Below, in pieces: positions 6,527 through 55,876 of a stretch of DNA of 64,000 nt. Position 1 is the stretch's first letter. Each line of letters begins with the position of its first letter. The notes beneath the pieces are model-generated. The model saw only the letters and a program-made list of their open reading frames with translations. It ran no database searches and was not told the origin of the DNA. Source of the DNA: Sulfurospirillum halorespirans DSM 13726 (GTDB taxonomy: Bacteria > Campylobacterota > Campylobacteria > Campylobacterales > Sulfurospirillaceae); contig NZ_CP017111.1 in the NCBI RefSeq assembly GCF_001723605.1, forward strand, positions 558,001 through 622,000, given 5' to 3'. The position numbers and the translations under genes are program-made.

Positions 6527-7276
6527 TTACTCACTGATCAGTTTGGTTCTGCGTGATTCATAGACATCGCGCAAGAAAGGATAGAGCTCAATCGCATCTT
6601 TTTTAAAGTTGTCATACTCTTTTACATGTAAAGAAGTTTTATTGATGGTGTAAAAGGCAGTAGCCGCCATTGCTTGATTAGAATTATCGAGCAGATTCGC
6701 ATCGTGGCGTCCTTTCATGTAGGTGATTGGGTTAAGCCACATATCGCCAGCAAGTCCTGCAATATCGCGAACATTGGATGGTCCAAAGAGCGGAAGGACA
6801 ACGTGGAAGCCATTGCCAACACCGTAATGCCCCAGTGTCTGACCCAAGTCTTCATCGTGCGCTTTGATGCCAAGCTCTTCGCCCGCCACATCACGAAAGC
6901 CTAAAATTCCCATGGTGGAGTTGAGTACAAACCGTTCTGTCTCTTCCAAACTGTTGTAAAATTTGAGTTGCAAAAGGTTGTTCACGAGACGAATAGGATA
7001 AAAAATATTCTCAAAAAAGTTTGAAACACCGTGACGCGCCATTTCAGGCACGACGTACGCGTAGCCTTGTGCGGTTGGTCTTAGAAGGTATTCGTAAAAT
7101 GTGTCATTGACGCTTGTCATCACTTCGTTGTAGCCACTGAGTGGATCGAAAAGATTTTCGCTATTTTTAGTATTAAATTCAGCCTCAAAGTCGTCATTGT
7201 TCTGTGTCGTCGTGCCAATATAGTCACTTGCGGACAAGAAGGAAAGGCTTATTAAACAGGCTAAAATAAAACGCAA
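6527..7276 (-). CDS. mlaA: MlaA/VacJ family outer-membrane lipid asymmetry protein
   Basis: The 249-residue protein has the MlaA core: DPLSGYNEVMTSVNDTFYEYLLRP, the NFFENIFYP region, RFVLNSTMGILGFRD, and GQTLGHYGVGNGFHVVLPLFGPS. MlaA extracts misplaced phospholipids from the outer leaflet. The start is TTG at 7276 with AGAGGT eight bases upstream. The signal peptide (FILACLISLSFLSASD) has no lipobox Cys near its end, although MlaA is a lipoprotein in enteric bacteria; here it may be anchored only through the ring embedded in the membrane. Co-transcribed with mlaC. Confidence 0.88.
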   Translation of the reverse strand: MRFILACLISLSFLSASDYIGTTTQNNDDFEAEFNTKNSENLFDPLSGYNEVMTSVNDTFYEYLLRPTAQGYAYVVPEMARHGVSNFFENIFYPIRLVNNLLQLKFYNSLEETERFVLNSTMGILGFRDVAGEELGIKAHDEDLGQTLGHYGVGNGFHVVLPLFGPSNVRDIAGLAGDMWLNPITYMKGRHDANLLDNSNQAMAATAFYTINKTSLHVKEYDNFKKDAIELYPFLRDVYESRRTKLISE

Positions 7277-7306
7277 AATAGTACCTCTTTCTTTTTAAAT
7301 TGCGCA

Positions 7307-7312
7307 ATTATA
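7307..7312 (-). promoter_or_regulatory. -10 element for mlaA-mlaC
   Basis: A consensus TATAAT on the minus strand lies 30 bases upstream of the mlaA TTG start. It diverges from the rpsB promoters. Confidence 0.55.
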
Positions 7313-7355
7313 GGATTTTTTTGATTTAAAGTAAATTAAAGCAGGCATCTTTGCT

Positions 7356-7403
7356 TATAATTAGATTAAAACAAGCAAAATTTAATCTTATTTTGACTAT
7401 AAT
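7356..7403 (+). promoter_or_regulatory. Tandem -10 elements for rpsB-tsf
   Basis: Two perfect TATAAT hexamers lie at 7356-7361 and 7398-7403. The downstream one would start transcription near 7410 and give a 90-base leader. Confidence 0.6.
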
Positions 7404-7409
7404 TACCGT

Positions 7410-7501
7410 CCAAATCTCACACACACCAATCCTTTACGGTTGCAGTTTACGCTGTTGATGGGTGTGGAGGCAAAACCAAAAAAAACACAAGGAGCAAATT
7501 C
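7410..7501 (+). promoter_or_regulatory. Structured 5' leader of rpsB
   Basis: Between the downstream promoter and the rpsB ATG, CACACCAATC (7422-7431) pairs with GATGGGTGTG (7457-7466), nine of ten positions, enclosing a 25-base loop. A clear AAGGAGC ribosome-binding site follows at the 3' end of the leader. S2 represses its own leader in enteric bacteria, so an autoregulatory role is plausible but is inference here. Confidence 0.5.
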
Positions 7502-8293
7502 ATGGTAACCATGAAAGACCTATTAGAATGCGGTGTACACTTCGGACACCAAACTAGACGTTGGAATCCAAAGATGAAAAAATTCATCTTCGGGGAGAGA
7601 AAAAACATCTATATCGTAGATTTACAAAAAACGTTGCGTTATTTTAGATACACGTACAATGTTGTTAAAGATGCAGCAGCAGAAGGCAAAACAATGCTTT
7701 TTGTTGGTACCAAAAAACAAGCAAGCCAAGCGGTTAAAGAGTATGCAGAAAAATGCGGTATGCCATACGTTAACCACAGATGGTTAGGCGGAATGCTCAC
7801 AAACTACCAAACAATCAGACAATCAATCCGTAAACTTGACATCATCGAGAAGATGGAAGAAGATGGACAAATTGACCTTCTTACGAAAAAAGAAGCGTTG
7901 ATGCTTAGAAGAAAAAAAGAGAAACTTCTTGATTACCTTGGTGGTATCAGAAACATGAAAAACTTACCCGATATGATCTTTGTTATCGACACTGTAAAAG
8001 AAAAAATTGCGGTTCAAGAAGCAAGAAGACTTGGAATTACCGTTGTAGCTCCACTTGATACCAACTGTGATCCAGACGTTGTTGATCTTCCAATCCCTGG
8101 AAATGATGATGCGATTCGTTCAATTCAACTTTTCTGTAAAGAGATGTGTGAAGCGATGACTGAGGGTTACGAAATCCGTTCAAAAGATGCTCCAGCTGCA
8201 GAAGAAGTAGCCGATATTAACGAAGATGAGAAAAAAGAGTTGATCGCAGAAGTGGTCAGCGAAGCAGAGTTTGCAGTAGAGGAAGGCGAATAA
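7502..8293 (+). CDS. rpsB: 30S ribosomal protein S2
   Basis: S2 binds late to the 30S subunit at the head-body junction. The 263-residue protein shows the family hallmarks: [22 protein letters not shown] at the start, [35 protein letters not shown] and [12 protein letters not shown]. The acidic C-terminal tail ([10 protein letters not shown] onward) is longer than in enteric S2. The stop overlaps the tsf ATG by one base (TAATG), so the two are coupled, the standard rpsB-tsf arrangement. Confidence 0.98.
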
Positions 8294-9360
8294 TGGCTGA
8301 GATTACTGCTGCTTCGGTCAAAGAACTTCGTGAGTCCACTGGGGCTGGTATGATGGACTGCAAAAAAGCACTAGTCGATACCGATGGTGATTTTGAAGCA
8401 GCCAAAGATCTTTTAAGAGAAAAAGGTCTTGGTAAAGCGGCTAAAAAAGCTGACAGACTTGCTAGCGAAGGTTTGGTCAACGTTTTCGTTGATCCAAGTC
8501 TTAAAATAGCAACGGTCAGTGAAATCAATGCTGAAACAGACTTCGTTGCAAAAAATGAAGGCTTTATCAATTTAACCAAAGACACCACAGCACATATTCA
8601 AACGACCAATGTTGAAACAACAGAAGAGTTGATGAAAACAACGATTAATGGGACTGTGTTTGAAGAGTATTTTGCAACGAAAGTTGCAACGATTGGTGAG
8701 AACTTGGTCGTTAGACGTTTTGCAACGCTTAAAGCGGGCGCAAATGGCGTTGTTAATGGGTATGTTCACTCAAACGGTCGTGTAGGTGTTTTAATTGCGG
8801 CAAATTGTGATAGCGAAAAAACAGCAGCAGCAGCGGGTGAGTTTATCCGTAACTTGTGTATGCACGCAGCGGCAATGAAACCAAGTTTTTTAAGCTACAC
8901 GGAGCTTGATGCTGAGTTTGTTGAAAAAGAGACCGTTGGTATTAAAGCGGATATTGAAAAAGAGAATGAGGAGTTGAAAAGACTTCAAAAACCTCTTAAG
9001 CGTATGCCTCTTTTTGTTTCTCGTGTGCAGTTAACCGATGCTGTTTTAGAAGATGCTAAAGCTGAGATGCAAGCGGAACTTAAAGCACAGGGTAAACCTG
9101 AGCAAATCTGGGACAAAATTATTCCTGGACAAATTGATCGCTTTATCGCTGACAATACACAGCTCGACCAACAATACACACTTTTAAGTCAATTCTATGT
9201 TATGGATGATAAAAAAACCATTGCACAAGTGGTTGAAGAAAAAGCTAAAGAGCTTGGTGGTAAAATTGAGCTCGTAGGCTACGTTCGTTTTGAACTTGGC
9301 GAAGGCTTAGAGAAAAAAGCATGTGACTTCGCGAGCGAAGTTGCTGAGCAACTCAAATAA
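8293..9360 (+). CDS. tsf: Elongation factor Ts
   Basis: EF-Ts is the nucleotide-exchange factor for EF-Tu. The 355-residue protein has the UBA-like start VKELRESTGAGMMDCKKAL, the TDFVAKNEGF motif that contacts EF-Tu, and HVHSNGRVGVL-like dimerisation-core sequence near residue 155. It is longer than enteric EF-Ts (about 283 residues) through an insertion in the second half (residues about 220-300), similar to the longer EF-Ts of this phylum. Coupled to rpsB and followed by a strong hairpin terminator. Confidence 0.98.
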   Translation: MAEITAASVKELRESTGAGMMDCKKALVDTDGDFEAAKDLLREKGLGKAAKKADRLASEGLVNVFVDPSLKIATVSEINAETDFVAKNEGFINLTKDTTAHIQTTNVETTEELMKTTINGTVFEEYFATKVATIGENLVVRRFATLKAGANGVVNGYVHSNGRVGVLIAANCDSEKTAAAAGEFIRNLCMHAAAMKPSFLSYTELDAEFVEKETVGIKADIEKENEELKRLQKPLKRMPLFVSRVQLTDAVLEDAKAEMQAELKAQGKPEQIWDKIIPGQIDRFIADNTQLDQQYTLLSQFYVMDDKKTIAQVVEEKAKELGGKIELVGYVRFELGEGLEKKACDFASEVAEQLK

Positions 9361-9377
9361 ATCTAAAAATTTTTCGT

Positions 9378-9404
9378 GGTGAAGAGGCAACTCTTCACCC
9401 TCTT
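9378..9404 (+). terminator. Rho-independent terminator after tsf
   Basis: GGTGAAGAG (9378-9386) and CTCTTCACC (9391-9399) form a perfect nine-base stem closed by the GNRA-type tetraloop GCAA, followed by a pyrimidine-rich TCTTTCTT tract. Confidence 0.8.
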
Positions 9405-9419
9405 TCTTGAAGGACATTG

Positions 9420-10064
9420 ATGTCTTTACTACATGCACAAAATATCTCTCATGCTTTTGATTATCTTCTATTTGAAAATGTTAATTTTACACTTTCCCCT
9501 AAAGAATCGATGGCGATTTTAGGTGTCAGTGGTAGTGGAAAATCAACCTTACTTCATATCTGTTCGACACTGCTTCAACCTAATCAGGGCGAAGTGATTT
9601 TGTGTGATCATACTATTTACAGCGATAGTGATGATGCAAGGTTAAAACTAAGACGTTACGATGTAGGGATTATTTTTCAATCTCACTACCTTTTTAAAGG
9701 CTTTTTTGCCAATGAGAATGTGGAACTTGCCTCTTTTATCAGTGATCAAGAAATTGACCCTAGCATTTTAGAACGTTTGGGCATCGCTGATTTTATGCAC
9801 TACCGTGTAGGAGATCTTTCAGGTGGTCAACAACAACGTGTCTCCATAGCGCGCGTACTGGCTAAAAAACCCAAAATTATCTTTGCCGATGAGCCCACGG
9901 GAAATTTGGATGATAAAACCGCTCAAGAGGTTATGAACGTTTTGTTTGAGTACATTGAAAAAGAAAACGCGGCTCTTCTTTTGGTCACTCATAATCATCA
10001 ATTAGCCAAACAGTGCACCTATACCAGACATCTCCATGTGGATGGACTCAAAGAGGAAGCATAA
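9420..10064 (+). CDS. LolD-like ABC transporter ATPase
   Basis: A 214-residue ABC ATPase with Walker A GVSGSGKST near residue 38, signature LSGGQQQR near residue 136, Walker B IIFADEPTG and the H-loop VTHNHQLA. Sequence and length fit the LolD/MacB/FtsE group, and LolD (lipoprotein release from the inner membrane) is the best guess. No membrane partner such as LolC/E is adjacent, so the assignment is by similarity only. Start taken at the ATG at 9420, seven bases after an AAGGA. The fliR GTG begins two bases after its stop. Confidence 0.8.
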   Translation: MSLLHAQNISHAFDYLLFENVNFTLSPKESMAILGVSGSGKSTLLHICSTLLQPNQGEVILCDHTIYSDSDDARLKLRRYDVGIIFQSHYLFKGFFANENVELASFISDQEIDPSILERLGIADFMHYRVGDLSGGQQQRVSIARVLAKKPKIIFADEPTGNLDDKTAQEVMNVLFEYIEKENAALLLVTHNHQLAKQCTYTRHLHVDGLKEEA

Positions 10065-48224: not shown

Positions 48225-49556
48225 ATGTCTTTAAACATGTTATGTGATCAATGCTCTATGAGTGCCATCAATGGCTGTGGTTCTAAAGGTCAAGATGTAG
48301 GAACGTGTGGCAAAGATGCCAACTTGGCGAAACTTCAAGACATCATGATTTACGGTCTTAAAGGTCTTAGTGCTTATAGAACGCATGCCAATGAATTTGG
48401 TGCCAATACCAAAGAAGTCGATGACGTCATCGCTCAAACACTTTATTTCACCCTTACCAACGTCAACTTCAACTTTGACGATCACATCGCTCAACTGATG
48501 AAAATCGGCTCTGCGGGTGTTAAAATGATGGACATCTTAAGTGATGCACACACCTCTCACCTTGGCGTTCCAACCCCTGTTAAAATCAGTCAAAACAAAG
48601 CGGAAGGTAAAGCGATCTTAGTAAGCGGTCACAATCTTGACATGTTCTTGGAGCTTTTGAAACAAACCGAAGGTAAAGGCATCAATGTCTATACGCATTC
48701 AGAAATGCTTCCAGCCCATGCGTATCCTGAGCTTAAAAAATACCCTCACCTTAAAGGTAACATCGGTAAATCATGGTTTGATCAAACCAAACTCTTTGAG
48801 CAATGGGGCGGAACGATCATCGTCAACACGAACTGTATCGTTCCTCCAAAATCAAACTCTACGTATATCGATAGACTCTATACTTACGACATCGTCGGCA
48901 TCAAAGAGGGCAAAAAAATCCACAATAACGACTTCAGTGAAGTCATCGCTCAAACACTCGCACTTCCTGATGTAACAGGTTTTGACAGTGAAGAGACTCT
49001 CGTAACAGGTCACCACTACAAAACCATCCTAGGACTTGCACCACAAATCTTAGAAGCAGTTCAAGCAGGCAAAATCAGCCAATTCTTTGTCATTGCGGGT
49101 TGTGACGCTCCAGGAAGCGGCGGCGAATACTACCGAAAAATGGCAGAAAGTCTTCCAAATGACTGCGTGATTTTGACATCAAGTTGTGGTAAATTTAGAT
49201 TTAACGACATCGACTTTGGTACGGTGGCAGACACAGGCATTCCTCGTTACCTAGACCTCGGTCAATGCAATGACAGCAATGGCGCAGTTCACATCGCTCT
49301 TGCCCTTGCAGGCGCACTGGGTGTGACTGTACATGACTTACCAGTTTCTATCGTTCTTAGCTGGATGGAGCAAAAAGCAGTTCTTATCCTTTTAGGACTC
49401 TTTAGCCTTGGCATCAAAAATATCTACCTCGGACCAAAACCACCACAATTTGTCAACGATGACATCTTCGCTTTCTTACAAGAGAACTTTAACTTGCATT
49501 TGACCGATGATGCAGCAAGTGACACGGAAAAATTATTGCTTAGAAAACCTGCGTAA
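48225..49556 (+). CDS. hcp: Hybrid cluster protein / hydroxylamine reductase (short form)
   Basis: 443 residues. N-terminal CDQCSMSAINGCGSKGQDVGTC binds the cubane cluster; hybrid-cluster ligands follow in VSGHN, NTNCIVPP, FVIAGCDAPGSGGEYY, TSSCGKFRF and DLGQCND. Hcp reduces NO or hydroxylamine and is induced in nitrate/nitrite respiration. The protein is about 100 residues shorter than enteric Hcp (550), consistent with the class that lacks part of the N-terminal helical bundle. An FNR-type box precedes it; a bulged terminator follows. Confidence 0.93.
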   Translation: MSLNMLCDQCSMSAINGCGSKGQDVGTCGKDANLAKLQDIMIYGLKGLSAYRTHANEFGANTKEVDDVIAQTLYFTLTNVNFNFDDHIAQLMKIGSAGVKMMDILSDAHTSHLGVPTPVKISQNKAEGKAILVSGHNLDMFLELLKQTEGKGINVYTHSEMLPAHAYPELKKYPHLKGNIGKSWFDQTKLFEQWGGTIIVNTNCIVPPKSNSTYIDRLYTYDIVGIKEGKKIHNNDFSEVIAQTLALPDVTGFDSEETLVTGHHYKTILGLAPQILEAVQAGKISQFFVIAGCDAPGSGGEYYRKMAESLPNDCVILTSSCGKFRFNDIDFGTVADTGIPRYLDLGQCNDSNGAVHIALALAGALGVTVHDLPVSIVLSWMEQKAVLILLGLFSLGIKNIYLGPKPPQFVNDDIFAFLQENFNLHLTDDAASDTEKLLLRKPA

Positions 49557-49576
49557 ATCTTTTACATGTAAAGATG

Positions 49577-49601
49577 GGGAAGCCTTGAGAGAGGCTTTCC
49601 C
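49577..49601 (+). terminator. Terminator hairpin after hcp
   Basis: GGGAAGCCT pairs with AGGCTTTCCC (one bulged base), loop TGAGAG. It is flanked by two TTTACATGTAAA palindromes (49561-49572 and 49626-49637). Confidence 0.6.
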
Positions 49602-49700
49602 AAACTTCTTACCCCTTCATCTTTCTTTACATGTAAAGAAGAAAAAGCTTTGAAAAAATATGCTAAAATGAGCTTATTAAAGATTAATAAGGAGCATAGG

Positions 49701-49925
49701 ATGAGCACAACGGTTACCATTAAGTCATCGAAACGAAGCGGTAAGCCTTGTATTAGAAATTTACGAATTACAGTTTATGATGTACTCAATATGCTTGCAA
49801 ACGGTATGAGTTACGATGAAATTTTAGAAGACTTCCCAAAACTGACCAAAGAAGACATTTTAGCCGCCCTTGCTTATGCCGCCGATAGAGAGCATAAAAC
49901 GCTTACGGCAAAACTCAGTGCATAA
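49701..49925 (+). CDS. DUF433 antitoxin-like protein
   Basis: 74 residues from an ATG with AAGGAG upstream. It has the DUF433 pattern: GKPCIRNLRITVYDVLNMLANGMS (helix-turn-helix-like), YDEILEDFPKLTKEDILAAL. Such proteins are the DNA-binding half of DUF433/DUF5615 pairs, viewed as toxin-antitoxin-like modules. The stop overlaps the next gene's GTG by eight bases. Confidence 0.8.
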   Translation: MSTTVTIKSSKRSGKPCIRNLRITVYDVLNMLANGMSYDEILEDFPKLTKEDILAALAYAADREHKTLTAKLSA

Positions 49926-50250
49926 ACTCCTTTTTGACAATAACATCTCCCATCGTGTCTTGTCAAAAATAGCAGACATCTTCCCCAATTCATTACATGT
50001 AATGCTTAAAAACCTTGACGAATCAACCGACTTGGAAGTATGGCGATATGCAAAAATTCACGGCTTTGCCATCGTTACCAAAGATTCTGATTTTAACGAT
50101 TTGGCAATTTACCGAGGGATTCCACCCAAAATCATCTGGATTAAACTTGGAAATTGCAAGGTGGATGCTATTGCTACGGTGTTGCGAGAGAATTATGAGA
50201 GCATTATAGAATTTTTAGACGATGAGGTTAGTGCTATTTTGGAGATATAA
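49918..50250 (+). CDS. DUF5615 PIN-like toxin candidate
   Basis: 110 residues from a GTG inside the end of the DUF433 gene. LLFDNNISHRVL at the start and AIVTKDSDFNDLAIYRG in the middle are the conserved acidic motifs of DUF5615 PIN-like RNase domains (Asp residues of the LFDNN and TKDSDF strands). A frame extending further upstream lacks a ribosome-binding site. Followed by a hairpin terminator. Confidence 0.8.
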   Translation: MHKLLFDNNISHRVLSKIADIFPNSLHVMLKNLDESTDLEVWRYAKIHGFAIVTKDSDFNDLAIYRGIPPKIIWIKLGNCKVDAIATVLRENYESIIEFLDDEVSAILEI

Positions 50251-50326
50251 AGTTAAAAGTTTAGCCTCTCTTTTCCTTTACTGATTAAAAGACCTTTGTA
50301 AATATCTTTACATGTAAAAGATGAAT

Positions 50327-50346
50327 AAGCCTTGAAAAAGGCTTTT
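50327..50346 (+). terminator. Terminator after the DUF433/DUF5615 pair
   Basis: AAGCCTT and AAGGCTT form a seven-base stem with a GAAA tetraloop, followed by TTTAAA. A TTTACATGTAAA palindrome (50307-50318) lies just upstream. Confidence 0.55.
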
Positions 50347-50352
50347 AAATGA

Positions 50353-53300
50353 TTAATGAAGCAATCGACTTTCTTCATCTCTAATTTGTTCTCTGTCTCG
50401 TTTATATTCAAATCCTTTTTTTACCCATTTTAAAAATTCGACCACACTCTCGTTATTCTCATATAACTTTAACATACTGGTTATATTTGATATTTTTTCA
50501 TTAGCAACGGGTACATAAGAACCACTCCAACTTTCACTCCTCGTTTGTATACTACTGTATAAATCTTCATCATTAGGAAATTCAGTTAAAAGCTTAATGA
50601 CAATATCTGGTAAAGTGTCACTTTCGAAATCAATATTTAGAGAATCTGCAACTATATATTTGGCTTTTTTATAATTTGTAGTTTTTAACCAACTTATTAC
50701 ATTATCGGGGTTTATATATGAAAATATTGAATGATTGAACCAACGAGATAAATAGCCACCTTGCATAAAATCAATAAAACGACTGTATAGAGGATAAGTT
50801 CTTGGTTTCAACTCATCAAGTCTATTTTTTATTTTTTCCCAAAAAAACTCTGGGTATTTTTGTATGATTTTATATATTGAATGAAATCCTCTATCTTCAA
50901 ATTTGCCCTCATTGTCAAATTCGCTTAAAATAGCTTCCCATATATGCGATAATAAGCCATCATCCAGTTCCAATTCATTTATAAAATAACTATCAATCAT
51001 TTCATCTATATCATGATGAAGTTTGTGCAACGAAATACAATTAAAGATTTTATGTTCTAGATAATATTTAGTATATTTTTCTATTAACTCTTTATCTTTT
51101 TGATGATTTACATATTGCATACATAAAATAAAACTATCGCATTTGTTGTCAATACAAGAATTTAGTCTATCAATAAAATTAACAAATTCATGCTTAGCTA
51201 AATCTCTAAGCCAAAACCCAAAAGTCAAATTCTCTAACAGGCGGGATTCTATTTCTTTTTTTTCCAGTAGCATATATAAATATTTTATACTTACTTCCGT
51301 AGGTTTCGAATAATGTATAAAATCAAGCATCATACTTTTATTATTTAGTTTTGTATATATATCATCAAACATTAAATGATAGTTATCTGTATCTATTGGA
51401 CTATTAAACAAATATGCTAATATAAACCTATTATTTGAATTTTTCGTTAGAGTGGGGATAAGATTTAATATATCTTCATATAAATTGCCTTCAATATCTA
51501 TTTTGGCAAGTTCTTTTCCAAGGTCGAAAACATTTGAAGTGCTCTTTGCTAATAAACCAGTATAGTTTCTATTTACCCAAATATCCTGAGCAATAACTTT
51601 ACAATGCTTTTCAAAAGCCTCTTCTGAGATATATCTATACCTTTCTGTTTGAAAAAATAGTTCTTTTGCCTCTTTTATATCAGTTGTATCAGTAAATTTA
51701 TTGTAGAGACTCTTTAATCTTTTGATAATGGCTTTGGATAATTTTTCATCCTTGTCATATTTAAGGATCATTGATATTTCTTCAAATAGTAAAGATTTCA
51801 AATACGGATATGCACTTAATAATTTTTCAATAAACTCTAAAAGCCAAATATTAATTTGATTATATTGCATCATCATTCTGCTTGAATGTAGCAAATCATT
51901 TAATATTTTTGACTGCAAATTTATAGATGAATTCTCATAGGCAAATTTTATGAGTTCTTTCAATTTTTCAAAATATGCATCTATCTCATCTTGAGTTGTA
52001 GGATAATAGTTTTCTGGAATATTTTCAGGAAAAGTTGAATTGTTTTTATGAGTTGCCATATAATTATGCTTTGGATATGAAGTTTCTAAAGCTTCCAATA
52101 ATATCAGTCTGTCTTCATCTGATGTAAATTCTTGATATAAACTTTTTAATAATTCAAGCCTCTTTACAATATTGACTTCTGTTCCTCCCAGAATCCATTG
52201 AAAAGTTTCAGTGAAAATTCCTTTAGAATTATTACTCCAAGATTCATTCTCAGCTCTTGCAAGCTGAAAAAGTATCTTTACACTGTCCTCAAATGTATCC
52301 TTAAAGGCTATTAACTCTTCAAGTGCATGAACTAAATACCTTCTTCCATATTCAAGTTTTAATAAATTTTCTTTTGTTTTATCTTCTAGTAATTTTTTTA
52401 AAATACCAATAGAATATTTTCTATCTTTTAGACACAATGTATAAAAGATTTTAGAACCAAATCCATCGCTTATTTGCTCATATGTAAGCTTTGATAAAAT
52501 TTGAAAAAGTAAATCCTTATGCTGAGATGTATCAAATTGTACACCTTGTAGTTTTTCAAAAAAACCATTCATAAGACCCTCATTATTTAACTTTTGAAAT
52601 AGCTTATCAATAAAGTTATAATCATTTATTTCAATAAATTGGTTAAATAAGTGAATAGAAATAGGTCGTGGACTAATATATAAAAATCTTCCAGCCTCTC
52701 TTACAATTCCCTTTTTTATAAAACTTTTTATTGTAATAGAAGCTGATGCATGATCAATGCCTAAATGCTCAAAAACAATTTTTTTGTACGGTTGAAATTC
52801 ATTAGTATTCGGAAACATTTTAAATATAGAAATTGCTTGAAGAATTTTTATATCTTCTGCTTTATCAGTAATTTTGCTTAAAATATTATCTAATAACTCT
52901 GATTTAAAATCTGGATTATTAGTATCACCTTTTTCAATGTCAAATGATTCTGCCATAAAATAGGCAAGTCTCGGATATCCCTCCGTATAATAAGCAATCT
53001 TTTTAGCTAAATCATCATTCAATAAATGATTTACTTCTTGAATTAATTTTACTGTCTCTGCTTCTTCTAAACCCTCTAACATAATTCTTTTTTCATCTTG
53101 ACAATGAATTTTATCTTGAGTAGATAAAACTTGGTCAATTGTAATTACAACTAAATTTGGATAGGTTTTTAAGTGTCTATAAATTTTAACATGATTGTCA
53201 TAAGGGCATTCATCAATTACAAATATCACTAATTCTTGACTGTTATCTGGAAGCTTTTTGCAAAATACTTGTAAATCGTTTAAAATAGAGTCATTATAGC

Positions 53301-54084
53301 TTTGAACATACAGAACAAAATTTTTATATTTTTCATCATTCAGTGTTTCGTAGATAAATCTCGTTTTTCCAATCCCTGAAAAACCCTCCACACGAATAAA
53401 TGATGAACTTTGAGAAGTTAATGTTCTATCAATTTCTTCTCGTATTTGAGCGATACTAGCTTCTCTTTTTTTATCGTTTATATATTTTACATCATCACTA
53501 AACTGGTTTATCTCACGCTCATAAAAATGAAATGACTCAAAATATTTTGTATGTAGGTTGCGGCTTAAATATATCTGGGGAATACTACTAGCCCACTCTG
53601 TAAGTTTTGTTAATCCAAAAATTTTTACCGATACATTTTGGTAACCTTTACTTCCAAATACTTCTTTTAGCACTCTCTCTTTTTCTTCAAACCTGATTGC
53701 AGGTAAGTCTGTTTTATTTGTAATAAGTAAATAGGTATACCCACTTTGAATCAATTCTTTAAGTTTTGGTTTTAAATCTGTTTTATCGCTTTTGAGTATT
53801 TCATGTTCAAACCAAGGTTTATCACCTATTTCTGTCGCTTTGAATTGAAATACTACATTTGAATTTGGCAAAAATAGATGATTTACAGGAATGGGTTTAT
53901 TAAAATTATTAAACTCTCCATCTGAACCACCATCACCAGTTTTAGTATTCAAAGAGATATCTAACCCTTGATTTAGCAAATTTAACTTTGCAATTTCATA
54001 ATACATAATTTGATAAACTAATGTTGGTAGTCCCACTTCATCTAACTTTTTTATATCATTCATATCAATGTCAGATAGTGCCAT
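50353..54084 (-). CDS. Nuclease-STAND NTPase, candidate anti-phage sensor
   Basis: 1243 residues. The N-terminus (about 20-170) looks like a PD-(D/E)xK restriction-type nuclease: GDGGSDGEF supplies the acidic residue and VVFQFKAT the QxK. A STAND/AAA-type NTPase follows (about 215-480) with Walker A VEGFSGIGKTRFIYETL and Walker B LVIFVIDECPYD. The remaining 750 residues are long helical repeats with few Gly or Pro, as expected of a ligand-sensing C-terminus. This architecture is that of Avs-like defence proteins, in which phage-protein binding activates a nuclease. The gene is visibly more AT-rich than its flanks, pointing to transfer. Confidence 0.72.
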   Translation of the reverse strand: MALSDIDMNDIKKLDEVGLPTLVYQIMYYEIAKLNLLNQGLDISLNTKTGDGGSDGEFNNFNKPIPVNHLFLPNSNVVFQFKATEIGDKPWFEHEILKSDKTDLKPKLKELIQSGYTYLLITNKTDLPAIRFEEKERVLKEVFGSKGYQNVSVKIFGLTKLTEWASSIPQIYLSRNLHTKYFESFHFYEREINQFSDDVKYINDKKREASIAQIREEIDRTLTSQSSSFIRVEGFSGIGKTRFIYETLNDEKYKNFVLYVQSYNDSILNDLQVFCKKLPDNSQELVIFVIDECPYDNHVKIYRHLKTYPNLVVITIDQVLSTQDKIHCQDEKRIMLEGLEEAETVKLIQEVNHLLNDDLAKKIAYYTEGYPRLAYFMAESFDIEKGDTNNPDFKSELLDNILSKITDKAEDIKILQAISIFKMFPNTNEFQPYKKIVFEHLGIDHASASITIKSFIKKGIVREAGRFLYISPRPISIHLFNQFIEINDYNFIDKLFQKLNNEGLMNGFFEKLQGVQFDTSQHKDLLFQILSKLTYEQISDGFGSKIFYTLCLKDRKYSIGILKKLLEDKTKENLLKLEYGRRYLVHALEELIAFKDTFEDSVKILFQLARAENESWSNNSKGIFTETFQWILGGTEVNIVKRLELLKSLYQEFTSDEDRLILLEALETSYPKHNYMATHKNNSTFPENIPENYYPTTQDEIDAYFEKLKELIKFAYENSSINLQSKILNDLLHSSRMMMQYNQINIWLLEFIEKLLSAYPYLKSLLFEEISMILKYDKDEKLSKAIIKRLKSLYNKFTDTTDIKEAKELFFQTERYRYISEEAFEKHCKVIAQDIWVNRNYTGLLAKSTSNVFDLGKELAKIDIEGNLYEDILNLIPTLTKNSNNRFILAYLFNSPIDTDNYHLMFDDIYTKLNNKSMMLDFIHYSKPTEVSIKYLYMLLEKKEIESRLLENLTFGFWLRDLAKHEFVNFIDRLNSCIDNKCDSFILCMQYVNHQKDKELIEKYTKYYLEHKIFNCISLHKLHHDIDEMIDSYFINELELDDGLLSHIWEAILSEFDNEGKFEDRGFHSIYKIIQKYPEFFWEKIKNRLDELKPRTYPLYSRFIDFMQGGYLSRWFNHSIFSYINPDNVISWLKTTNYKKAKYIVADSLNIDFESDTLPDIVIKLLTEFPNDEDLYSSIQTRSESWSGSYVPVANEKISNITSMLKLYENNESVVEFLKWVKKGFEYKRDREQIRDEESRLLH

Positions 54085-54148
54085 AATAATTTTCCTATTT
54101 TATTTCTTGGAAAGTTTATCATAAACAAATTTTAGAAAAAAGGTAAAG

Positions 54149-54928
54149 CTAAATTTTAAACTTTTTACCTATTCTTTCGCTATCTACTTTAACAACATTT
54201 CGACACTTTGGATACCCACTACACCCGTAAAACGGCTCACCCGTTTGTCTATTGTGTCTTAAAACCAGCTCTTTACCACATCGTGAACATATTTTTGTTG
54301 ATGCGGTTGATGTAGGTTTTGCATTGTGTCGTTCATGTAAGTTGGAAACATGTTCTCTATCGGTTAAAAAGCTTTGTTTGAGGCGTTTTTGATTTAGGGT
54401 TTCAATCGTCATGTCAAATTGATAGGCAGAGAGTTTTTCTTCTTGGAAAGATTCGATGTAAGACGTGTATTTTGCATTGATAAAAACATTTTTTGGCATA
54501 GCGGTTTTAAATTTGCAATCACCGATGAAAACAACGATGGGAATAATGCTTTCTGAGGGCAATGCCAATATCTCTTCTAAGGCTTTGGTATGGCGATAAT
54601 TTTGGCGTAAAGGATTTTGAAAACGGTGCTTTTCTTTGAAGATTTGCTGTGTCCACATGCTCTGGTGCTCATCGCCAAAAATCCACCCTTTCATGTTTTT
54701 TGTTTCAATCACAAAAACACCATAACGAGAGACAATGACATGATCTATTTGGGTAGTTGAGCCATCATTGAGTTGTAAAGTGATGTTTTTAATATTGACA
54801 TATTCGTCTTTATTGAGGTGCAAAGAAGTCGCAATATTGACCGTAAATTCGCCAACTTTACCTTTCATCCATGGAGTTTTAAATAAAATACCCAGTACAA
54901 AAACAGAACCAAGGAACCAAAAAATCAA
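54149..54928 (-). CDS. NERD-domain protein with topoisomerase-type zinc ribbon
   Basis: 259 residues: an N-terminal membrane helix (MIFWFLGSVFVLGILF), a NERD nuclease-related domain (LNDGSTTQIDHVIVSRYGVFVIETKN, with D and ExK in place for a PD-(D/E)xK centre), then a four-Cys zinc ribbon (CSRCGKEL, GCSGYPKCRN) like the C-terminal fingers of topoisomerase I. The function of such proteins is not established. It lies 64 bases upstream of, and in the same direction as, the STAND gene, so they may be co-expressed. Confidence 0.85.
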   Translation of the reverse strand: MIFWFLGSVFVLGILFKTPWMKGKVGEFTVNIATSLHLNKDEYVNIKNITLQLNDGSTTQIDHVIVSRYGVFVIETKNMKGWIFGDEHQSMWTQQIFKEKHRFQNPLRQNYRHTKALEEILALPSESIIPIVVFIGDCKFKTAMPKNVFINAKYTSYIESFQEEKLSAYQFDMTIETLNQKRLKQSFLTDREHVSNLHERHNAKPTSTASTKICSRCGKELVLRHNRQTGEPFYGCSGYPKCRNVVKVDSERIGKKFKI

Positions 54929-55000
54929 TGTAAAATCCTTTACATGTAAGAAATAAAATTACGTTATTGTACCTCTTTTGAAAAGAACCTCATGCTTCTA

Positions 55001-55876
55001 TTACTCTTCCTCAACCAACCTCTGTCTTATCCCCTTCAACTCATCTTTCCGCTTGTCATCCGTTTCAGGGTAGTGCATATCGAGCGCTTTAAAGGTATCC
55101 AGAAGAATATTTGAGATGATGAGGCGAGCATTTTTTTTGTCGTCAGCAGGTACGATGTACCATGGGGCATTTTTGGTGCTGGTGGCGCTTAGGCAGGACT
55201 CGTAGGCGTGCATGTACTCTTTCCAGTATTTTCGCTCTTCAAGGTCTGCGATGCTAAATTTCCAATTTTTATTGGGTTTGTCGATGCGCTCAAGAAAGCG
55301 TTTTTTCTGCTCATCTTTGGAGAGATGGAGGAAAAATTTGACGATTTTTGTGCCGTTACGGTGGAGATGGTTTTCCAAATCTGTGATAGAACGGTACCTC
55401 TCTTTCCAAACGCTCTCTTCATCAAGCACGCTGTCTGGCAGTCCTTGTCCTTGTAAAATCTCAGGATGAACACGAACAATGAGTACTTCTTCATAATAGG
55501 AACGATTAAAAACGCCTATTTTCCCGCGTTCTGGAAGAACACACGTCGTGCGCCATAGAAAATCATGCTCAAGTTCAGCGGCAACAGGGTGTTTGAAACT
55601 AAAGACTTGACACCCTTGGGGATTGATGCCTGAGAGAACATGCCTGATGACGCCGTCTTTTCCTGCCGCGTCCATCGCTTGAAAGATCAACAGTACGGCA
55701 TATTTGTTGGATGCGTAAAGCAGTTCTTGCAAGTCGCTTAACTCTTTTACGCCCTCTTTGAGCGCATCTTCGTAGTCTTCTTTGTCTTTGTAAAATGGTT
55801 TAACAAGGGTAGGGGACTTTTTAAGGTCAACCTTTGCGCCCTCGTGCACGAGAAAATCTTCTGTTTTTAGTTTCAT
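55001..55876 (-). CDS. ppk2: Polyphosphate kinase 2 family protein
   Basis: 291 residues with the PPK2 core: [27 protein letters not shown] (Walker A), [22 protein letters not shown] (Walker B region), and [28 protein letters not shown] lid. PPK2 enzymes phosphorylate nucleotides at the expense of polyphosphate; subgroup (ADP or AMP substrate) cannot be decided by eye. Confidence 0.93.

Follow-up and report, generated by a model that had tools for sequence, protein, structure and literature searches.

A divergent PD-λ-4A-family protein with a predicted nuclease-STAND architecture in a Sulfurospirillum defence hotspot

The Avs proteins follow a tripartite plan of N-terminal effector, STAND NTPase and C-terminal sensor; in Avs1-4 the effector is a nuclease that cuts host and phage DNA once a terminase or portal is recognised, and in Avs5 it is Sir2 (PMC12931631). 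By description, proteins of a defence hotspot in P4 satellites are similar in that they combine a nuclease domain and a STAND NTPase with C-terminal repeats (PMC9122126). The PD-λ systems are described by Vassallo et al. 2022 (PMC9519451) as picked and validated against λvir in E. coli; one of them, PD-λ-4, comprises two genes, A and B, and a review names the E. coli PD-λ-4A protein only for its P-loop NTPase (PMC10952713).

Here we compare with these systems a gene in a 64,000-nucleotide stretch of the Sulfurospirillum halorespirans DSM 13726 genome, referred to as the window (Table 1). An earlier note on this DNA had proposed that the gene encodes an Avs-like nuclease-STAND protein, probably serving anti-phage defence and acquired by transfer. 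The window ORF check returned a single unbroken frame of 1243 codons, and the four motifs quoted in the note are all present in the expected order. They are not chance occurrences, as little or no variation is seen among 18-19 homologues at D51/G53/D55, Q80/K82, E95, G234/G237/G239/K240/R242, D291 and C293. The low GC content that the note had sampled was also borne out: the gene has a GC content of 0.28, falling to 0.19 at third positions, and the 2-kb profile drops to 0.27 at the gene against 0.40-0.46 around it (surrounding DNA about 43%).

Table 1. Coordinates of the features discussed, as positions in the window.
Feature	Position	Strand	Basis
PD-λ-4A-family nuclease-STAND protein, 1243 aa	50353..54084	-	ORF; PADLOC PDLC03991 PD-Lambda-4_A, E 1e-24; homologue alignment
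Predicted PD-(D/E)XK-type nuclease domain, residues 1-180	53545..54084	-	AlphaFold topology and invariant residues
GDGGSDG, residues 50-56, predicted metal-binding Asp of nuclease	53917..53937	-	Homologue alignments
FQFKAT, residues 79-84, (E/Q)xK motif, Q80 and K82 invariant	53833..53850	-	Homologue alignments
STAND NTPase and helical lid, residues 201-420	52825..53484	-	Model, fold searches; weak Pfam AAA_16 / nSTAND_NTPase5 / NB-ARC matches in homologues
Walker A GFSGIGKT, residues 234-241, R242 also invariant	53362..53385	-	Homologue alignments
Walker B-like FVIDEC, residues 288-293, family signature D-x-C	53206..53223	-	Homologue alignments
GYPR, residues 369-372, STAND GxP-like motif between two lid helices	52969..52980	-	Alignment and model
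Winged-helix-like domain, residues 421-480	52645..52824	-	Helix-helix-hairpin at 431-470 in model
Alpha-solenoid (HEAT-like), putative sensor, residues 481-1243, conserved patch 588-642	50356..52644	-	Model, fold searches, alignment
Terminator-like hairpin, immediately after the stop codon of the 1243-codon ORF	50327..50344	-	Consensus match only
NERD-domain nuclease-like protein, topoisomerase-type Zn ribbon, 64 bp upstream of the STAND gene; slot resident, not obligate partner	54149..54928	-	Also beside other cargo in L091, L101
DUF5615 (PIN-like) gene, likely toxin of a toxin-antitoxin pair; slot resident	49870..50250	+	Without STAND gene in L089, L093, L094, L100, L103
DUF433 gene, likely antitoxin partner of the DUF5615 gene	49701..49925	+	Domain annotation and locus comparison
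hcp-like core gene, left flank of slot	48225..49556	+	23/24 genus genomes
PPK2 gene, right flank of slot in this species group	55001..55876	-	Annotation and locus comparison

Judged by homology, the 1243-aa protein adds a divergent member to an established defence family, PD-λ-4A. Its one defence-profile match in PADLOC is PD-Lambda-4_A (PDLC03991, residues 1-705), and no other PADLOC model matched it. The match covers profile positions 1-715 and, in the genome search, a second stretch at 1149-1278, so that homology to PD-λ-4A runs from end to end. All 19 aligned homologues, from bacteria and haloarchaea, match the same model, and the family residues DGGxD, QxK, E, GxxGxGKTR and DxC are also kept in the window protein; searches of Pfam and NCBIfam gave no above-threshold name. 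With the E. coli PD-λ-4 A protein (1283 aa; Vassallo et al. 2022, PMC9519451) it shares this homology, the length class and the invariant residues of nuclease, Walker A and D-x-C, but it is only about 16% identical, lies on a deep separate branch and has no PD-λ-4B either at its locus or elsewhere in the genome. The link from the PD-λ-4 system to the PD-Lambda-4_A family is PADLOC's assignment.

In the tree, the window protein and a 91% homologue from a Sulfurospirillaceae MAG, the sole match in a single-protein scan of genome contigs, share a long branch distant from the E. coli clade; the grouping of this branch with a Cyanobacterium row may reflect long-branch attraction. Five further Campylobacterota genomes gave short, weak matches (24-29% identity, partial, with internal stops), which were rejected as homologues, and GiPD474 (PMC12724215) was discarded as a ParA-like ATPase. 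Searching plasmids by tblastn recovered homologues of 19-24% identity in cyanobacteria, rhizobia, Thalassobaculum, Vibrio, Legionella, Xanthomonas and haloarchaea. An Enterobacter homologue, with matches in 173 of 5426 genomes, led in turn to E. coli members, which are PD-λ-4A itself, in some cases with PD-λ-4B next to it. Family copies occur on plasmids and also in prophages. Phage records searched with the window protein yielded no match; homologues do lie on IMG/VR contigs (L107, L109, L110, L113), probably prophages, so the family seems to be carried by phages too. In Haloarcula marina the homologue consists of two overlapping ORFs (L012:5926-6966 and 6959-9703) that break after residue 346, between NTPase and lid, as a natural split or a frameshift.

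The genomic setting is that of a variable slot. Only two of the 24 genus genomes (G000 and G034) carry the STAND gene, in agreement with the note's expectation that its orthologues would not be part of the core genome. Across relatives (L089-L095, L101), the interval between hcp and PPK2 (48225-55876) constitutes a Sulfurospirillum defence hotspot with at least six different cargoes. These comprise a type I-like methylase with a specificity gene (L090), McrBC (L092), a GHKL-ATPase with a methylase (L093), a PD-T4-6-like kinase (L101), an unknown 678-aa protein (L091) and small ORFs only (L089); the restriction-modification, McrBC, GHKL-ATPase/methylase and kinase genes provide a defence context for a gene that the note had read as probably anti-phage. 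The 678-aa protein (L091:955-2991, reverse strand, 25% GC) directly adjoins the NERD gene and is a candidate new defence gene with no match in Pfam or PADLOC. Comparison with the 91% homologue argues for transfer, as the note had supposed from base composition: fourfold-site divergence is 0.22 for the STAND gene against 0.80 for the flanking hcp, from which we infer a recent exchange between species, and 0.39 for the NERD and DUF5615 genes.

The window is also populated throughout by a highly iterated palindrome, TTACATGTAA / TTTACATGTAAA, for example at 49562, 49627, 50308 and 54940. The 10-mer occurs 35 times in 64 kb against 0.1 expected, and the 12-mer 785 times in this genome and 657-791 times in two congeners, compared with 0-2 copies in almost every one of the 118 further Campylobacterota genomes searched and 21 in one. 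Copies fall both within and between genes; an uptake signal, a HIP-like element or a protein site are candidate roles, and a literature search found no paper naming such a palindrome for this host. Between 50318 and 54939 there is no copy, a gap that fits foreign DNA, if weakly (Poisson about 0.08).

The neighbouring NERD gene raises the question of whether the two proteins form a two-gene defence operon. They are encoded on the same strand with a 64-bp gap, the pair is also kept in the Sulfurospirillaceae MAG, and PADLOC's second gene, PD-λ-4B, likewise adjoins A in E. coli. We nevertheless consider such an operon unlikely, given that the NERD gene stands beside unrelated cargo in L091 and L101, that it differs from the STAND gene in GC content (0.36 vs 0.28) as well as in divergence, and that no homologue looked at elsewhere has a NERD-annotated neighbour, though many of these neighbours are merely 'hypothetical'. 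The hotspot comparison rules NERD out as an obligate partner; because the NERD and DUF433/DUF5615 genes recur beside different cargo, they are best regarded as residents of the slot.

At the N-terminus, where the note had seen a PD-(D/E)xK-like domain, the AlphaFold model of residues 1-640 has a nuclease-like αβββαβ core (H18-33, E42-46, E54-59, E77-82, a helix and E117-122), in which the acidic loop precedes strand 2 and QxK sits on strand 3. All 18 aligned N-terminal domains have D51, G53, D55, Q80, K82, E95 and Y118, and nearly all have E30. This predicted fold and these residues fit a PD-(D/E)XK nuclease, with the model at moderate confidence (pLDDT 71; models built from 9 sequences) that is lowest around the nuclease loops. 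Profile searches with N-terminal domains returned no Pfam or PDB profile naming the domain as a nuclease.

The same model contains a STAND core, consistent with the NTPase assignment in the note: Walker A (G234-K240), Walker B (D291), GxP (G369-P371) and a winged-helix-like segment (431-470) are all present, and in the D-x-C Walker B (D291, C293) the middle residue varies among homologues as E, N, D or G. With residues 1-640 as query, the best Foldseek match is Avs4 (8dgf, E 2e-8), followed by Apaf-1, a STAND-TPR protein, SAMD9 and Avs5, and the top 15 also include Avs3. VIA-align matched EfAvs5 (PDB 9jap) to the STAND core and following helical part (residues 181-638; Z 12.2, 329 aligned, rmsd high at 17.8), but since its list consists mostly of generic AAA+ chains (NSF/Sec18) it supports the fold of the NTPase, a P-loop AAA/STAND core, and not its class. 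Other searches were less specific: phmmer against the PDB gave just a weak AAA match, PDB profile searches (queries A1, A7, A9) weak NLR, RFC or AAA matches or nothing useful, and BFVD generic AAA-type matches only; no Avs chain was matched in the PDB sequence and profile searches.

For the C-terminus, in which the note had seen about 750 helical residues, the model of residues 480-1243 is all helix (mean pLDDT 72) and matches HEAT-like solenoids of the PP2A-A, CAND1 and karyopherin type, with Z values in the usual range for repeats. A patch at 561-700 is the most conserved part besides nuclease and NTPase. Solenoids of the HEAT-like type are able to bind nucleic acid as well as protein, a property which, along with the restriction-modification and McrBC genes among the cargo of the same slot, would suit a direct restriction factor that uses its NTPase and solenoid to detect phage DNA or modified DNA and its nuclease to cut it, the cell surviving. 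The switch, however, is a STAND module with winged helix and GxPR, closest in fold to Avs4, Apaf-1 and Avs5, and neither a translocase nor an AAA ring of the McrB type, and no DNA-recognition domain was seen in the protein; direct restriction therefore appears improbable.

Taken together, alignment, model and Foldseek place the protein on the effector-switch-sensor plan that the note had recognised, with the solenoid as putative sensor. It resembles Avs4 and Avs3 (PDB 8dgf, 8dgc) in its predicted N-terminal nuclease effector, STAND switch and long helical C-terminus, although the latter models as a HEAT-like solenoid. It differs from Avs5 in having a nuclease-like effector instead of Sir2 (PMC12931631), and from the P4-satellite proteins (PMC9122126) in lying in a chromosomal slot. 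The sequence comparisons lend no support to placing the protein in a named Avs1-5 class: PADLOC assigns it to PD-λ-4A, in line with the note's failure to find a class for it, and gave no Avs1-5 match at E up to 1, which is informative only if the PADLOC copy contains Avs models.

We therefore propose that the product of this gene is quite probably an Avs-like receptor of the PD-λ-4A family that acts against phages on its own: it would sense through its solenoid, switch through its STAND module and stop infection by cutting DNA. The solenoid would bind a phage product made during infection, upon which the STAND module would exchange nucleotide and oligomerise; the N-terminal PD-(D/E)XK domains would thereby be brought together and cut DNA, which would stop the infection but probably kill the cell. 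What the analysis itself shows is that the protein belongs to the family, in what order its domains lie, that its nuclease and nucleotide-binding residues are conserved, that the gene is mobile and that it sits in a defence hotspot; ligand binding, oligomerisation, DNA cleavage and the abortive outcome are modelled here on Avs, Apaf-1 and NLR proteins. Some STAND proteins are transcription regulators, and a regulator without a role in defence, or a decayed relic, might be considered instead. This seems very improbable for an intact ORF that keeps its catalytic-type residues across very large divergence, is mobile and sporadic, occupies a slot full of defence genes and belongs to a family with a member in a tested defence system.

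The missing partner sets this receptor apart from the E. coli system. PD-λ-4B was found only in E. coli-type loci (L028, L029, L109, L123) and is missing at all other loci examined. The window gene therefore belongs to the PD-λ-4A family but does not form a two-gene PD-λ-4 system, and the activity tested against λvir may not carry over to its product, because the E. coli system includes gene B. It is conceivable, if somewhat short of an even chance, that the PD-λ-4A family is a separate and mostly single-gene class of nuclease-STAND receptors in bacteria and haloarchaea, to which PD-λ-4B was a late addition in one E. coli-type lineage.

These results tie E. coli PD-λ-4A to an Avs-like architecture that combines a nuclease with a STAND switch and a helical sensor, and extend its family to the Campylobacterota, cyanobacteria and haloarchaea. 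D55, K82 and K240 are concrete residues for mutation, and the hcp-PPK2 interval is marked as a defence hotspot in Sulfurospirillum. Should the family indeed be a separate single-gene class, the patch at 588-642 and a C-terminal WSGS motif would mark where the protein recognises a conserved phage feature that no Avs protein is yet known to detect.
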